From: an uncultured Acidobacteriota bacterium
Lineage (GTDB): Bacteria; Acidobacteriota; Thermoanaerobaculia; UBA5066
Direction: 5' to 3'
Assembly (NCBI GenBank): GCA_903845115.1
Contig: CAIMWE010000005.1
Coordinates: forward strand, 1 to 49,272
Length of the DNA: 49,272 nucleotides
Positions within the stretch are counted from its first letter, which is position 1; each line of letters begins with the position of its first letter. Made by a program: the position numbers and the translations under genes. The notes beneath the pieces were generated by a model. The model was not told the DNA's origin. It saw nothing but the letters and a program-made list of their open reading frames with translations, and searched no databases. Positions 29,924-35,347 of the stretch are shown here, piece after piece.

Positions 29924-30604
29924 ATGCGCATGCCGCTCGCCGGACGCCGGATCCTCGTCACGCAGTGCAGGGAGTTCATGGGCCCCCCGCTGTGCGAGGT
30001 CCTGGCGGAGCACGGCGCGGAGGTCGTCGCCGACCCGCGCCCCCTCGCGGAACCGTCCGCCGCCGCCCAGCTGGTGCGGGAGACCGGCCGGATCGACGTC
30101 CTGGTGGCGAACCTGGCCCTCCGGGCCCCCACGACCGCCGTCGCGGAGGTGTCCGAGGCGGAGTGGCGCGAGGTCTTCGCCGCGCTGGTCGATCCGCTCC
30201 CCCGGCTCTTCGCCGCCGTCCTTCCGGAGATGACCGCCAGGCGGCAAGGCAAGATCCTCGTCATCGGGAGCGCGTCGGCCCTGAGGGGGATGAAGCGCGC
30301 GTCCACCTACAGCGCGGCTCGTGGCGCGCAGCTCTCCTACGTGCAGGCGGTCGGCGTGGAGGTGGCCCCGCACAACGTGCAGGTGAACGCGATCGCCCAG
30401 AACTTCGTCGACAACCCGACCTACTTCCCGCCGGAGGTGCAGGCGAACCCCCGGTTCCAGGAGAGGCTGCAGCGCGAGGTGCCCCTGGGCCGGCTGGTCT
30501 CCGCCCGCGAGGACGTGGAGTTCGCGGCCTACCTGTGCAGCGATGCCGCCAGCTGCTTCGTCGGCCAGGTCTTCCCGGTGTGCGGCGGGTGGGTGACGAG
30601 GTGA
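29924..30604 (+). CDS. Short-chain dehydrogenase with halohydrin-dehalogenase-like S-Y-R triad
   Basis: A 226-residue SDR-fold protein. The usual glycine-rich NAD(P) motif is replaced by VTQCREFMGPPLCEVL, and the catalytic segment is GSASALRGMKRASTYSAARGA, Ser...Tyr-x3-Arg instead of Tyr-x3-Lys. NFVDNPTYFPPEVQANPRF, then PLGRL and FVGQVFPVCGG, match the halide-pocket side of halohydrin dehalogenases. Such enzymes convert vicinal halohydrins to epoxides and do not need NAD. The exact substrate is unknown, and a non-dehalogenase divergent SDR is possible. It is a single gene with no clear ribosome site at ATG 29924. Confidence 0.85.
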   Translation: MRMPLAGRRILVTQCREFMGPPLCEVLAEHGAEVVADPRPLAEPSAAAQLVRETGRIDVLVANLALRAPTTAVAEVSEAEWREVFAALVDPLPRLFAAVLPEMTARRQGKILVIGSASALRGMKRASTYSAARGAQLSYVQAVGVEVAPHNVQVNAIAQNFVDNPTYFPPEVQANPRFQERLQREVPLGRLVSAREDVEFAAYLCSDAASCFVGQVFPVCGGWVTR

Positions 30605-30675
30605 CCGGGTGGGGGGCGACGAACGGGCTTCACCCTGCGGCGTTTCCAGGCCCCGGGCGGCTTGGAAGACGCCCT

Positions 30676-31239
30676 CTACGACAACACCGTCGACGTGAAC
30701 CCTGAGAATCTGGACGACGTGGTGGTGGCCGGGAACGCGAACGACACCGTCCTCTGGCCGGACTCGGTGGCGAGCTCCACGCGTCTCCTCGAGGTCCCCT
30801 GGACGGGGAAGGTCTTCCGCTCGCTCGACGGCAGCGCCCGAGAGAAGGCGAGCGTGACGCCCTGTCGGTCGCGGCAGACCCGGTCCATCCAGCCGAACAG
30901 CTCCTCGAGGTCGTAGTCGCCTCCGTGACCCTGAGCCCAGGGGAGAAGGAAGTCGACCTCCGCACCGCTGTTAGCCAACCAGGCGGCGAGGATGGTGGGA
31001 ATCGCTAGGGAGGTGTCCCGGTCGACGGTGCCGTGACGGATCCGCCAGTGCCTGGCGACGGTGGTGCCCTTCGCTCCTATGTAGCGGATCGGGTTCATCA
31101 GCTTGACGACGCCGGCATCGGCCAGCTTCCCGGCGTTGGAGATGGTCGATCTTGCCAGGCCGGGAGGTATCCCTCGTTTCTGCCTCCGCGCCGATCGAAA
31201 GGCGGGGACCCGATGCCTTGACAAAGATGCGATCTGCAT
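30676..31239 (-). pseudogene. C-terminal remnant of a subtype B tannase / feruloyl esterase
   Basis: Within this frame, about residues 35-125 read LMNPIRYIGAKGTTVARHWRIRHGTVDRDTSLAIP and then FLLPWAQGHGGDYDLEELFGWMD (each piece only partly quoted), the C terminus of subtype B tannase with the conserved RIRHG and catalytic His region. The N-terminal two thirds with the active serine are absent, and both ends of the frame are unrelated in character. It is most likely a decayed fragment that happens to remain open. The region also precedes the promoter at 31218 on the other strand. Confidence 0.6.
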
Positions 31240-31246
31240 ATATGTT
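31218..31246 (+). promoter_or_regulatory. Near-consensus promoter of the SPFH cassette
   Basis: TTGACA at 31218-31223, a 17-base spacer and TATGTT at 31241-31246 form a strong sigma-70 promoter in an AT-rich patch, 80 bases before the SPFH start. The palindrome CATATATG at 31237-31244 overlaps the -10. Confidence 0.75.
31237..31244. promoter_or_regulatory. CATATATG palindrome, copy 1
   Basis: This 8-base palindrome (in GCATATATG) overlaps the -10 box. The same 9 bases occur before the Nudix regulator gene at 33318-33326. In such GC-rich DNA the repetition suggests an operator, possibly for the NrtR-like regulator of this cassette. Confidence 0.4.
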
Positions 31247-31325
31247 AATTGTAGATAAGTGGTCGGGCCAGGTCGGACCCGATCACCGCCACCCCGGCAA
31301 GAGCCGGGAGAACAGGAGCGACGAC

Positions 31326-32390
31326 ATGGCAGAGATCCGTTCCTATCCTTTCTTCCGTCACGTGCGCGCGGACGCGAGCTCCTTCGTGCTCCACTACCGC
31401 GGGACGCGCCTCCGCCACTCCGGGCGGGGGCTGGCCTTCTGGTTCCGCCCCCTCGAGGACAGCGTGGCCGAGATCCCGGCCGACGACCGGGAGCTGGCCC
31501 TCGTGATCCACGGCCGCAGCGCCGACTTCCAGGACGTCAGCGTCCAGGGACTGGTCACCTACCGGGTGCTGGATCCCGCGAAGCTGGCCGAGCGAGTGGA
31601 CTTCACGGTGGACCCGAGGACCGGCGTCTTCCTTCGCCAGCCGCTGGAGAAGATCGCCCAGTTCGTGTCGCAGCTCGCCCAGCAGCACGCGGCCGACTTC
31701 ATCGCCCAGGCGCCCGTCCGCCAGATCCTCACGGAGAACCAGGCGCGCATCCGCTCCCTGGTCGAGGAGGGGCTCGCGCGGGACGCCCAGCTGGAGGCGA
31801 TGGGCCTCGCGATCCTGGGGGTCCGGATCATCTCCGTGAAACCGTGCCCGGACCTGGAGAAAGCCCTCGAGGCGCCGATGCGGGAGAAGATCAAGCAGGA
31901 GGCGGACGAGGCCGCCTTCGGCCGGCGCGCGATGGCCGTGGAGAAGGAGCGGGCCATCCAGGAGAACGAGCTCCAGAACCGCATCGAGCTCGCGAAGCGG
32001 GAAGAGCAGCTGATCGGGCAGCAGGGCCAGAACGAACGGCGCAAGGCCGAGGAGATCGTGGAAGCGCAGCACGTCACCCTCGCGGAGGAGGTGCGGGCCC
32101 AGTCCCTCAGGGCCGAGGCCGCCGCGAAGGCCGAACGGATGCGCTTCGAGGCAGAGGCGGAAGGGATCCGGGCGGTGGAGGGCGCCAGGGTGGAGGCCGA
32201 GCGGGAGCGGCTGGAGGCCCAGGCCAAGCTGCCCACGGGGATCATGGTGGGGCTGGCCCTGCGGGAGCTGGCGGGCAAGCTCCGTCGCATCGACCACCTC
32301 AACCTGGGTCCAGACCTGATCGGGCCGGCCTTCGTGAACCTGCTGGAGGCCGGAACGCAGAAGCTGGAATCGGGCACGAGAGGCAAGTGA
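31326..32390 (+). CDS. SPFH/band-7 domain protein
   Basis: A 354-residue protein of the SPFH (stomatin/prohibitin/flotillin) type. The N-terminal part has HYRGTRLRHSGRGLAFWFRP. The SPFH core follows (about 60-190: LVIHGRSADFQDVSVQGLVT, VRQILTENQARIRSLVEEGL, MGLAILGVRIISVKP), then a long charged coiled coil (about 200-310) with repeated E/A/K/R heptads. It lacks an obvious N-terminal membrane helix, so it may be soluble or peripheral. GGAG lies 9 bases before ATG 31326. Its stop is 1 base before the start of the next gene. Confidence 0.88.
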   Translation: MAEIRSYPFFRHVRADASSFVLHYRGTRLRHSGRGLAFWFRPLEDSVAEIPADDRELALVIHGRSADFQDVSVQGLVTYRVLDPAKLAERVDFTVDPRTGVFLRQPLEKIAQFVSQLAQQHAADFIAQAPVRQILTENQARIRSLVEEGLARDAQLEAMGLAILGVRIISVKPCPDLEKALEAPMREKIKQEADEAAFGRRAMAVEKERAIQENELQNRIELAKREEQLIGQQGQNERRKAEEIVEAQHVTLAEEVRAQSLRAEAAAKAERMRFEAEAEGIRAVEGARVEAERERLEAQAKLPTGIMVGLALRELAGKLRRIDHLNLGPDLIGPAFVNLLEAGTQKLESGTRGK

Positions 32391-32391
32391 G

Positions 32392-33291
32392 ATGGCCGGC
32401 ACGACGCCCCGGGTGATCCTGGTCACCCGGCCCACGGACCTGGAGGCGCTGCTGGCGCGCCACGGGACCCGTGACCAGGCCCGGTTCTTCCTGGAATCGC
32501 GGGGCCAGCGCATCGAGGACGTGGAACGGCATCATTCCCTCTTCCTGGCCGCGCTGCAGACGGTGCTCCAGGGGATCCCGGCGAGGTGGCGGCGGGCCAG
32601 GATCGACCGCTCCGACCTGGCGGGCTTCGTGTTCGAGCCCGAGGACCTGATCCTGGTGCTGGGGCAGGACGGGCTGGTGGCGAACGTCTCGAAGTACCTC
32701 GAGGGACAGCTGGTGCTGGGGGTCAATCCGGATCCCGAGCGGTTCGAGGGGGTCCTCGTGCCGCACCCGGCGGCCGCGTGCGCCGATCTGCTCGTGGGCG
32801 CGGCCGAGGGCCGCGCCAGGGTGGAGGAGCGCACGATGGTGGAAGCGGACCTCGACGACGGCCAGAGGCTGCTGGCCCTGAACGAGCTCTTCGTCGGCCA
32901 CCGCTCCCACCAGTCCGCGCGCTATCGCATCCGGATGGAGTCCCGCGAGGAGCGCCACTCCTCCTCGGGCCTCATCGTCGCCACCGGAACGGGCTCCACC
33001 GGGTGGGCGAAGTCGATCCATCAGGAGCGGCACGCGGCGCTGAAGCTGCCGGGGCCCTCCGCCCCCAGCCTGGCCTTCTTCGTCCGCGAGGCCTGGCCGA
33101 GCCGCTGGACGCAGGCGGGGCTGACCGAGGGCAGCCTGGAGCCGGGGGTGGCGCTCGAGATCACCTCGGAGATGAACGAGGACGGGGTGGTCTTCGGGGA
33201 CGGGATCGAGGCGGACCGGCTGGAATTCACGTGGGGGATGACGGTCGTGGTCAGGGCGGCCGATCGTCGGCTTCGGTTGATCGCGGCGTGA
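32392..33291 (+). CDS. NAD kinase-like protein
   Basis: A 299-residue protein of the NAD(+)/NADH kinase superfamily. LVLGQDGLVANVSKYL takes the place of the GGDG loop (here G-Q-D-G), ALNELFVGHRSHQSARYRI is the NE/D dinucleotide-site segment, and GLIVATGTGSTGWAKS is the conserved phosphate/ribose loop. The second glycine of GGDG is Gln, which may alter ATP use. The probable function is NADP formation or phosphorylation of a related dinucleotide. Tight spacing to the SPFH gene shows one operon. The Nudix regulator follows after 56 bases. Confidence 0.87.
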   Translation: MAGTTPRVILVTRPTDLEALLARHGTRDQARFFLESRGQRIEDVERHHSLFLAALQTVLQGIPARWRRARIDRSDLAGFVFEPEDLILVLGQDGLVANVSKYLEGQLVLGVNPDPERFEGVLVPHPAAACADLLVGAAEGRARVEERTMVEADLDDGQRLLALNELFVGHRSHQSARYRIRMESREERHSSSGLIVATGTGSTGWAKSIHQERHAALKLPGPSAPSLAFFVREAWPSRWTQAGLTEGSLEPGVALEITSEMNEDGVVFGDGIEADRLEFTWGMTVVVRAADRRLRLIAA

Positions 33292-33318
33292 GCCGGACCT
33301 TGGCTCGAGGCTCTTCGG

Positions 33319-33326
33319 CATATATG
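33319..33326. promoter_or_regulatory. CATATATG palindrome, copy 2
   Basis: The second GCATATATG (33318-33326), in the 56 bases between the NAD-kinase-like gene and the Nudix regulator gene, with flanks CTTC and GAAG that form a wider imperfect dyad. It matches the copy at 31237. Confidence 0.4.
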
Positions 33327-33347
33327 GTTGAAGGCGGCGGAATTCGC

Positions 33348-34109
33348 ATGACGAGACGACGCCGCGCCGGCGGCAAGAATCCCGGGCGCTCCGACGAGCA
33401 GGCCTTTCTCGCCGCCTACGACCCGTCGGCCTTCGAGCGCCTCTCGGTCACGGTCGACGTGGTCCTCCTGTCGCCCCTCGAGGGACATCTCCACACCCTG
33501 CTGATCCGCCGGCCGGATCACCCCTTCAAGGGCTGCTGGAGCCTGCCGGGCGGGTTCGTCGAGAGGACCGAGTCGCTGGACGAGGCGGCGGCGCGGGTGC
33601 TGCTCGCGAAGACCGGACTGAAGAAGGTGTTCCTGGAGCAGCTCTACTCCTTCGGGCGGCCGGAGCGCGACCCCCGGACCCGCGTGATCAGCGTGGCCTA
33701 CTACTCGCTCGTGGATCCCAGGCGATTCGCGGAGATGAGCGTGCCGGGAGAGGACGCCCTGGTGGTCCGCGTCCCGCCATTCAGGGCGGGAGCCTCCGTC
33801 GTGAGCCTGGATGCCAGGGACGGCAAGCCGCTGGAGCTGGCCTTCGACCACTCGGAGATCCTGGCCGTCACGCTCCAGCGCATCCGGGGCAAGATCGACT
33901 ACACCCCCATCGGATTCGAGCTTCTCCCCAGGGCGTTCACCCTTTACGAGCTCCAGAAGGTGCACGAGATCGTCCTCGGGCGGAAGCTCAACAAGGACTC
34001 CTTCCGGCGCCGGATGCTGGCTTCGGGCCAGCTCGAAGCGACCGGCGAGAGCCAGCAGGATGTCGATCACCGTCCTGCATCCCTGTATCGATTCGCCAGG
34101 AGGCGCTGA
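33348..34109 (+). CDS. NrtR-like Nudix-domain transcriptional regulator
   Basis: A 253-residue protein. Residues about 28-165 form a Nudix domain: LSVTVDVVLLSPLEGHLHTLLIRRP, then CWSLPGGFVERTESLDEAAARVL. The Nudix box lacks the REUxEE glutamates (RVLLAKTGL), so hydrolysis is unlikely. About 180-250 is a winged helix (LLPRAFTLYELQKVHEIV, LNKDSFRRRML). This is the NrtR design, where ADP-ribose or a related NAD product releases a repressor from NAD genes. ATG 33348 is used; ATG 33324 overlaps the CATATATG box. It probably regulates the preceding NAD-kinase-like and SPFH genes. Confidence 0.88.
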   Translation: MTRRRRAGGKNPGRSDEQAFLAAYDPSAFERLSVTVDVVLLSPLEGHLHTLLIRRPDHPFKGCWSLPGGFVERTESLDEAAARVLLAKTGLKKVFLEQLYSFGRPERDPRTRVISVAYYSLVDPRRFAEMSVPGEDALVVRVPPFRAGASVVSLDARDGKPLELAFDHSEILAVTLQRIRGKIDYTPIGFELLPRAFTLYELQKVHEIVLGRKLNKDSFRRRMLASGQLEATGESQQDVDHRPASLYRFARRR

Positions 34110-34158
34110 AACCGACCGCGGTCGTGCCGCCGGGGCGGGAGACCCGAAGCCGCCGGCT

Positions 34159-34420
34159 GGATCATGGGGAGCTTCTTGTCGAAGGTCGGGGCGTAGAGAG
34201 CGCTCGGCCGGAGCCCCTTCGTGAAGAGCGCCGGGTCGATCCCGGAAGCGCGGACGAGGGCGAGGCTGACGCCGAACGACGCCGTCAACGAGCCGATCAG
34301 GTGGCGATTGCGGACCTCCACGCCCGGGTCCGGCCCGGCACGGATGCGGCCCGCCGCGACCCGCTGACCGCGACGCCGTACCACAAGCACGTGAACGTGC
34401 GCCTGCGGCCGATGGACGGA
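34159..34420. pseudogene. Collapsed collinear copy of the 43.0-46.7 kb locus
   Basis: The 360-base gap 34110-34469 is mostly a mosaic. 34159-34302 matches 43055-43198 (dehydrogenase gene) at about 141 of 144 bases without indels. 34303-34341 matches 45008-45046 (molybdopterin gene) less well. 34341-34420 matches 46591-46670 (3' end of the same gene) at about 89 percent. Order and orientation are kept, so two internal deletions of about 1.8 and 1.55 kb would make it from an intact copy. Neither gene can be made from it. Confidence 0.85.
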
Positions 34421-34469
34421 CTGCCGGACGGAGCGCCGGTCCCGACGTCGTGACTTCGCGGACGGAGCC

Positions 34470-35099
34470 CTAGCGCAGCCCCGCGGCGGCGCGCCGCGCC
34501 AGCTCCAGGCGGGTCGCCGTGCCGGTCTTCTTCAGGAGCTTGCCGACGTGGAACTTCACGGTCGACTCGGTGATGCCGAGCCGGTGGCCGATCTCCTTGT
34601 TCGAGAGCTCGTCCAGGACGCCGGCCAGGACCCGCTTCTCGGCGCGCGTGAAGGCGAAGTCACCGGCCGTCCCGGAGCCTGGGTGCGAGACCTGGTCGAC
34701 CCACCGCGAGAGGAGGGAGCGGGGCGCCCAGAGGGAGCCACCGATGACGCAGCAGAGCGCGGAGTGGACCTCCTCGGGAGTGGCGTCGACCGGGAGGAAC
34801 CCCTTCACGCGGAGCCGGAGCGACGGGAACGTCATCTCGGGCCCGAGGTCCTCCACGAAAGCGACGACGTGCGGATCGTCCAGCTCGCGCGAGAGGCGCT
34901 CGAGGGAGTCCCGCACCTCTGGGCCGCGCCACGCCAGGTTCGCGAGGACGACCTCGGGCTCGAGCCCTGGCTCGCGATCGGTGAGCACCTGGAAGCCGGA
35001 TGAGCTCAGGTGCGTGACGAGGCCCGAGCGCCGCCAGCGGTCGGGCTCCAGGAGGAGGAGCCGGACACCCCGATCCGCCGCCCGGTCGCGTACGTGCAT
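34470..35099 (-). CDS. LuxR/NarL-type regulator with degenerate receiver
   Basis: A 209-residue regulator. Residues about 12-125 have the receiver fold (RLLLLEPDRWRRSGLVTHL, GFQVLTDREPG, PEVVLANLAWRG, VVAFVEDLGPEM, VKGFLPVDATPEEV), but the phosphoacceptor position is Asn in VLANLAW and the acidic pair is reduced to EPD. It is therefore a pseudo-receiver that is probably not phosphorylated. About 140-209 is the LuxR helix-turn-helix (LDELSNKEIGHRLGITESTV). TATAAT at 35109-35114 lies only 10 bases before ATG 35099, so the mRNA may be leaderless. It is divergent from the PQQ-propeller gene. Confidence 0.87.
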   Translation of the reverse strand: MHVRDRAADRGVRLLLLEPDRWRRSGLVTHLSSSGFQVLTDREPGLEPEVVLANLAWRGPEVRDSLERLSRELDDPHVVAFVEDLGPEMTFPSLRLRVKGFLPVDATPEEVHSALCCVIGGSLWAPRSLLSRWVDQVSHPGSGTAGDFAFTRAEKRVLAGVLDELSNKEIGHRLGITESTVKFHVGKLLKKTGTATRLELARRAAAGLR

Positions 35100-35108
35100 C
35101 GAACAGAA

Positions 35109-35114
35109 ATTATA
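35109..35114 (-). promoter_or_regulatory. -10 box of the LuxR-type regulator
   Basis: A perfect TATAAT on the minus strand ending 10 bases before the start codon, with no good -35. Transcription would begin about 3-5 bases before the ATG. The rest of the 248-base divergent gap shows no further signal to me. Confidence 0.5.
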
Positions 35115-35347
35115 AGAGGGGCTCCGCGAGGCCAGGGCCGTGATCTTCGCGCGGCAGGCATGGTCCGGAACTCGACCAAGGCGTGAGCGGGGCCCGCACC
35201 TCGACTGTCCTTCGTCCGGACTGCCGCTCGACCTGTTCCCGCGCAAGAGTGACAGCGGAATCCAGGGGCGACCGACTCCGCCGCGGCCAACTTTTCGTTC
35301 ACGTCCACTGAAACGTAGAACTCGCTCACAACTGGAGCACGAAGAAG

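Follow-up and report, generated by a model that had tools for sequence, protein, structure and literature searches.

A conserved SPFH, NADK2-like kinase and NrtR gene cassette with a palindromic operator as a candidate NAD/ADP-ribose response unit

Introduction

What might bind a scaffold-type protein, a kinase related to those acting on nicotinamide adenine dinucleotide (NAD) and a Nudix-type regulator into one genetic unit? This question is raised by a three-gene cassette (SPFH protein, NAD-kinase-like protein, NrtR-family regulator) in contig CAIMWE010000005.1 of assembly GCA_903845115.1, from an uncultured Acidobacteriota bacterium (Thermoanaerobaculia, UBA5066); the window is the whole stretch that we analysed, positions 1-49,272. 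An earlier sequence-only reading of this DNA had described the cassette as an ADP-ribose- or NAD-responsive unit in which a membrane-type scaffold and an unusual dinucleotide kinase work together. By sequence comparison, the three genes are retained as a set in at least six bacterial phyla, and we think it reasonably probable that it forms a self-contained, NrtR-controlled NAD/ADP-ribose response unit in which an NADK2-like kinase acts with an SPFH assembly.

Results

In the window the three genes run head to tail behind an upstream promoter, the kinase gene starting 1 nt past the SPFH stop and a gap of 56 bp separating it from the regulator gene. The elements of the cassette are as follows.

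31218-31246, plus strand: sigma-70-type promoter, TTGACA at 31218-31223, 17-nt spacer, TATGTT at 31241-31246; sole match in 30600-35300
31224-31257, no strand: putative NrtR operator of 34 bp, AAGATGC-gatct-GCATATATGT-taatt-GTAGATA, with core GCATATATG at 31236-31244; based on relatives' consensus and shuffles
31326-32390, plus strand: SPFH/Band 7 protein, 354 amino acids, without transmembrane segment, charged C-terminal half strongly conserved
32392-33291, plus strand: NADK2-related kinase with GQDG motif, 299 amino acids; D93, N164, E165 and T203 conserved
33318-33326, no strand: operator core GCATATATG a second time, arms not conserved, within the 56-bp gap ahead of the regulator gene
33348-34109, plus strand: NrtR-family regulator, 253 amino acids, in which an N-terminal Nudix domain whose catalytic box is degenerate is followed by a C-terminal NrtR winged helix

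Linkage of the SPFH and kinase genes is strict. Among 297 genomes of the same phylum, searched at E < 1e-15 for the SPFH subfamily and E < 1e-50 for the kinase, the SPFH subfamily occurs in seven, which are exactly the seven that carry the kinase, and the two genes are always adjacent; by our own arithmetic the chance odds of such co-occurrence would be about one in 10^13 for independent genomes, and these genomes are not fully independent. Three further kinase hits in the same set (L010-L012) are distant, carry GGDGT and have no SPFH gene. Species genomes of GTDB hold at least 582 kinase loci, from which the best-scoring 80, not a random sample, were kept and combined with plasmid and whole-genome loci to give 91 examined loci. 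An SPFH gene lies in 88 of these 91 and an NrtR gene in 71, so that the association of SPFH with both NAD genes, on which the sequence-only reading had staked its proposal, does recur elsewhere. The order NrtR-SPFH-kinase is found 41 times, a divergent NrtR gene 26 times and a downstream NrtR gene, as in the window, four times; no NrtR gene was found at 17 loci, some of which lie at contig ends. Carriers include members of Acidobacteriota, Planctomycetota, Myxococcota/Deltaproteobacteria, Pseudomonadota and Actinomycetota and a Spirochaetota plasmid, and systematic clustering of cassette neighbours found no fourth recurrent gene. The cassette was not found in three sampled genomes of the window genome's own family (G055, G098, G176); its distribution is patchy, through transfer or loss.

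The second line of evidence is the operator. The promoter noticed previously ahead of the SPFH gene, TTGACA-17-TATGTT, is the only sigma-70-like match across 4.7 kb, where 0.1 would be expected. The palindromic box GCATATATG overlaps its -10 element and recurs ahead of the regulator gene, as had been noticed; 100 dinucleotide-shuffled versions of the window contain no copy, and these two are the only exact ones in the 5.85-Mb genome, one-mismatch copies being at background level. Upstream of the relatives' cassette genes, the same octamers are enriched (CATATATG at 19 loci against 1.5 expected, ATATATGC at 20 against 1.2, ACATATAT at 23 against 1.7), and a palindromic motif search of these upstream regions reached a log-likelihood of 252, compared with 31 for shuffled sequence. 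Aligned on the core, the relatives give the consensus TAGATGC-N5-GCATATATGC-N5-GCATCTA. Its 24 fixed positions are matched in full by L068, at 23 by L030, at 20-22 by ten more loci and at 19 by the window, a score reached by none of 200 shuffles of the region, while shuffles of the whole window peak at 14-16 positions. In the window the 34-bp element spans from just past the -35 to beyond the -10. This palindrome is conserved in Planctomycetota, Myxococcota/Deltaproteobacteria and Acidobacteriota, which answers the earlier question of whether homologous cassettes share the box, and it is likely the regulator's operator, judged from position and conservation. Actinomycetota cassettes have a different palindrome, around TTATCGTCA...TGACGATAA, located in the divergent promoter; NrtR motifs are commonly clade-specific (PMC4666351, PMC5343134). 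The idea of a repeated box holds in part: the conserved operator is built around the first copy, but the second keeps the core without conserved arms and was not found in L031, a relative of identical gene order. As GCATATATGC is present in 103 of the 297 same-phylum genomes and is not specific in AT-richer ones, this 10-mer serves as a marker only through its position and 34-bp context.

The regulator is placed in the NrtR family by Pfam matches above both cut-offs (NUDIX, 9.1e-12; NrtR_WHD, 2.2e-24), and its match to the NCBIfam NtrR equivalog NF050029 (181 bits) falls below the curated cut-off of 400. Together with the Band_7 match of the SPFH protein (5.6e-15; 56.3 bits against a cut-off of 23.6), these assignments agree with the gene calls made from the sequence alone. 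The catalytic Nudix box, GGFVERTESLDEAAARVLLAKTGL, is indeed degenerate: its REUXEE part now reads RVLLAK (RVLLAKTGL against REUXEEXGU), with loss of the glutamates, and this impairment is common to the regulator's clade. An intact box (RELxEETG) occurs in Actinomycetota cassette regulators such as L043, L050 and L091, which from their sequences could be active hydrolases. In a tree of 52 NrtR proteins the cassette regulators do not form one group, and the well-supported branches force at least six label changes, a count that does not tell gain from loss. The cassette regulators of L017, L020 and L038, again with an intact box, group with NrtR proteins that adjoin NAD-salvage genes (L115-L117). 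Since cassette regulators fall in separate branches, NrtR proteins of different ancestry adjoin the same SPFH-kinase pair, and the label changes make it probable that NrtR control of the pair arose, or was re-established, on more than one occasion.

The altered loop noted earlier in the kinase, G91-Q92-D93-G94 (GQDGL instead of GGDGT), proved to be a hallmark of its family: 87 of 89 cassette kinases carry GQDGL, with one GPDGL and one GRDGL. NADK2-like proteins without an SPFH partner keep GGDGT. The Pfam scan gave no match of any kind for the window kinase, and 26 of the 45 members of its family match PF01513 weakly (best 4e-5); NCBIfam gives it weak NAD-kinase matches (best 7.7e-7), and among proteins of solved structure human mitochondrial NADK2 comes closest to it (5e-8 with a single sequence, 7e-19 with a profile). 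Existing annotations call the cassette kinases 'sugar kinase' or 'hypothetical protein'. Across 45 kinase sequences D93, N164, E165, T203 and the glycine after the catalytic aspartate are invariant. Activity of Mycobacterium tuberculosis Ppnk needs the Asp of GGDG, the Asn and Glu of the NE/D motif and the Thr of region II (PMC8553519), residues that on our own reading of motif positions would correspond to D93, N164, E165 and T203. The window's genome has its own canonical GGDGT NAD kinase elsewhere, which makes the cassette kinase an additional and specialised paralog.

The membrane-type scaffold first envisaged finds no support in the SPFH protein. No transmembrane segment was found in the cassette SPFH family (the top 19-residue hydropathy is 1.38 and the family median 1.19); peripheral membrane attachment is possible. 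The profile match to HflK is weak (8e-4), and the second half of the protein is strongly conserved.

The proposed tie to NAD/ADP-ribose metabolism is borne out by genes near relatives of the cassette. In G065 a box-led operon comprises SPFH, kinase and ADP-ribosylglycohydrolase genes, with the NrtR gene about 3.4 kb off. Its sister G260, of the same genus, has no SPFH or kinase match; there an ortholog of G065's regulator, sharing 62% identity with that of the window, leads into a macrodomain gene (PF01661, 1.7e-45). The single box of the G260 genome keeps the 34-bp geometry (20/24) and stands ahead of a vWA gene and an ADP-ribosylglycohydrolase gene (PF03747, 4.6e-47). We regard this pair as the strongest clue to an ADP-ribose link. 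Other cassettes include an ADP-ribosylglycohydrolase (L037), a microbial PARG (L020, 1.1e-50), NAMPT with a Nudix protein (L055) or a nucleoside-deoxyribosyltransferase-like gene (L021), and in three alphaproteobacterial cassettes (L048, L052, L065) a PncA-like gene adjoins NrtR. All such matches lie inside the cassette or at most 0.6 kb from it, with the sole exception of L086 (4.1 kb).

Some further observations concern plasmid copies and the upstream flank. Acinetobacter lwoffii plasmid pALWED1.1 has a complete NUDIX/SPFH/kinase cassette directly before tetR(H)-tet(H); in pHHV216 the same kinase gene and part of the SPFH gene flank tet(H), and p405tetH retains a 3' fragment of the kinase gene. 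The cassette appears to be the old genomic neighbour of tet(H). The tet(H)-linked plasmid loci are:

L131, 4094-8841
L132, 5426-8844
L135, 428-2797

On a Streptomyces plasmid (L130, 2165-5888) a vWA-domain gene precedes the SPFH-kinase pair; a vWA gene is also one box-led target in G260 (L114). Upstream of the window cassette, a minus-strand open reading frame at 30676-31239 looks by eye like the C-terminal part of an alpha/beta hydrolase (HWRIRHGTVDRDTSLAIP) and extends into the cassette promoter; it is probably a gene remnant.

Discussion

The linkage, operator conservation, family assignments and kept catalytic residues described here come from sequence comparison, and from them we infer NrtR repression, its relief by ADP-ribose or an NAD derivative, NAD(H) phosphorylation and scaffolding by the SPFH protein. 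In the mechanism that we favour, an NrtR dimer on the operator would block RNA polymerase. Consumption of NAD would raise the level of free ADP-ribose, or of a related compound derived from NAD, and this ligand would occupy the inactive Nudix domain. ADP-ribose makes NrtR proteins release DNA (PMC6800001, PMC4666351), and the ligand-filled repressor may likewise leave its site, as MsNrtR does (PMC6800001), allowing SPFH protein and kinase to be produced together. The kinase would then phosphorylate NAD(H) or, with lower probability, a nucleotide derived from NAD, and the SPFH protein could assemble into a ring- or shell-like structure that keeps the kinase in place or organises it. The likely purpose would be to restore balance in the NAD(P) pool, or to protect it, during NAD turnover. 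Several points weigh against this proposal. GQ in place of GG in the kinase's catalytic loop could mean an altered substrate or lower activity, and cooperation between SPFH protein and kinase is read from their strict pairing only. Most cassettes have no additional NAD gene beside them, and since effectors in the NrtR family vary, including ADP-ribose, NAD and even arabinose (PMC4666351), ADP-ribose as the effector is a guess helped by context.

As an alternative, the kinase might be an NADK homolog that is catalytically dead or regulatory, sensing a nucleotide to gate the SPFH assembly and not making NADP(H). Replacement of the second glycine of GGDGT in all 89 cassette kinases, its retention in the SPFH-less proteins and the separate canonical kinase in the genome speak for such a sensor, which we hold to be a less likely possibility; a dead enzyme, however, need not keep the catalytic Asp, the next Gly, the N-E pair and the region II Thr that are invariant here. 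It is unlikely, though conceivable, that the acceptor is ADP-ribose or another NAD breakdown product, which the unit would detoxify or trap. The recurrent ADP-ribosylglycohydrolase, PARG and macrodomain neighbours, the altered loop and a regulator family that senses ADP-ribose (PMC6800001) would fit this picture, but no NAD kinase assayed to date phosphorylates ADP-ribose (PMC8553519), and NADK2 acts on NAD(H). A more elaborate arrangement, in which a soluble SPFH ring or shell binds ADP-ribose or NAD, a docked GQDG kinase phosphorylates an NAD-derived nucleotide other than NAD and an ADP-ribose-sensing repressor switches the unit on, seems to us rather improbable; it would amount to a novel type of assembly for handling ADP-ribose, common among bacteria.

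The patchy distribution and plasmid-borne copies, and the role of NAD and ADP-ribose as a common currency in phage conflict (PMC13174449), could also point to a unit for phage defence or for countering NAD depletion. This is set against the absence of any PADLOC match of note, of kinase homologs in the phage collection and of recurrent defence neighbours, and we give the idea little credence. That three unrelated genes and a repeat came together by chance has virtually no probability; the cross-phylum linkage and operator conservation refute it, and nothing was left in its favour after testing.

The SPFH-kinase pair has no description in the literature that we searched, whose coverage does not extend to the founding NrtR paper (10.1093/nar/gkn047), and the three-gene unit is apparently both widespread and undescribed. 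The cassette points to an unrecognised branch of NAD/ADP-ribose biology, and its defined operator, regulator and kinase motif offer a direct test of how bacteria handle NAD turnover and ADP-ribose.

Among known systems, the NrtR regulons of MsNrtR and SoNrtR share a Nudix-like effector domain with an impaired Nudix motif, the NrtR winged helix, a palindromic operator and local, NAD-connected targets. Their targets are NAD synthesis or salvage genes, whereas those of the cassette are an SPFH protein and an NADK2-like kinase; the window regulator also scores under the NCBIfam NtrR cut-off, and its box has no further exact genomic copy. HflK, stomatins and flotillins share the Band_7 domain with the cassette SPFH protein, with the weak profile match to HflK, and differ from it in that the cassette protein lacks a transmembrane segment and has a kinase as its partner; no recurrent NfeD- or FtsH-like partner was found among cassette neighbours. 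The shoulder of the RNA vault is SPFH-like. This shoulder is reported to bind ADP-ribose (PMC13174449, a preprint) and, if the likeness holds, would set a precedent for an ADP-ribose-holding assembly of SPFH type, by analogy only. The cassette kinase matches human NADK2 (C5orf33; PDB 7r4j, 7n29) in its GVN-DPER and TGTGS-W stretches and its NE motif; it differs in being bacterial, paired with an SPFH protein and equipped with GQDGL for GGDGT, and an assigned partner for a bacterial relative of NADK2 would follow from the arrangement proposed here.

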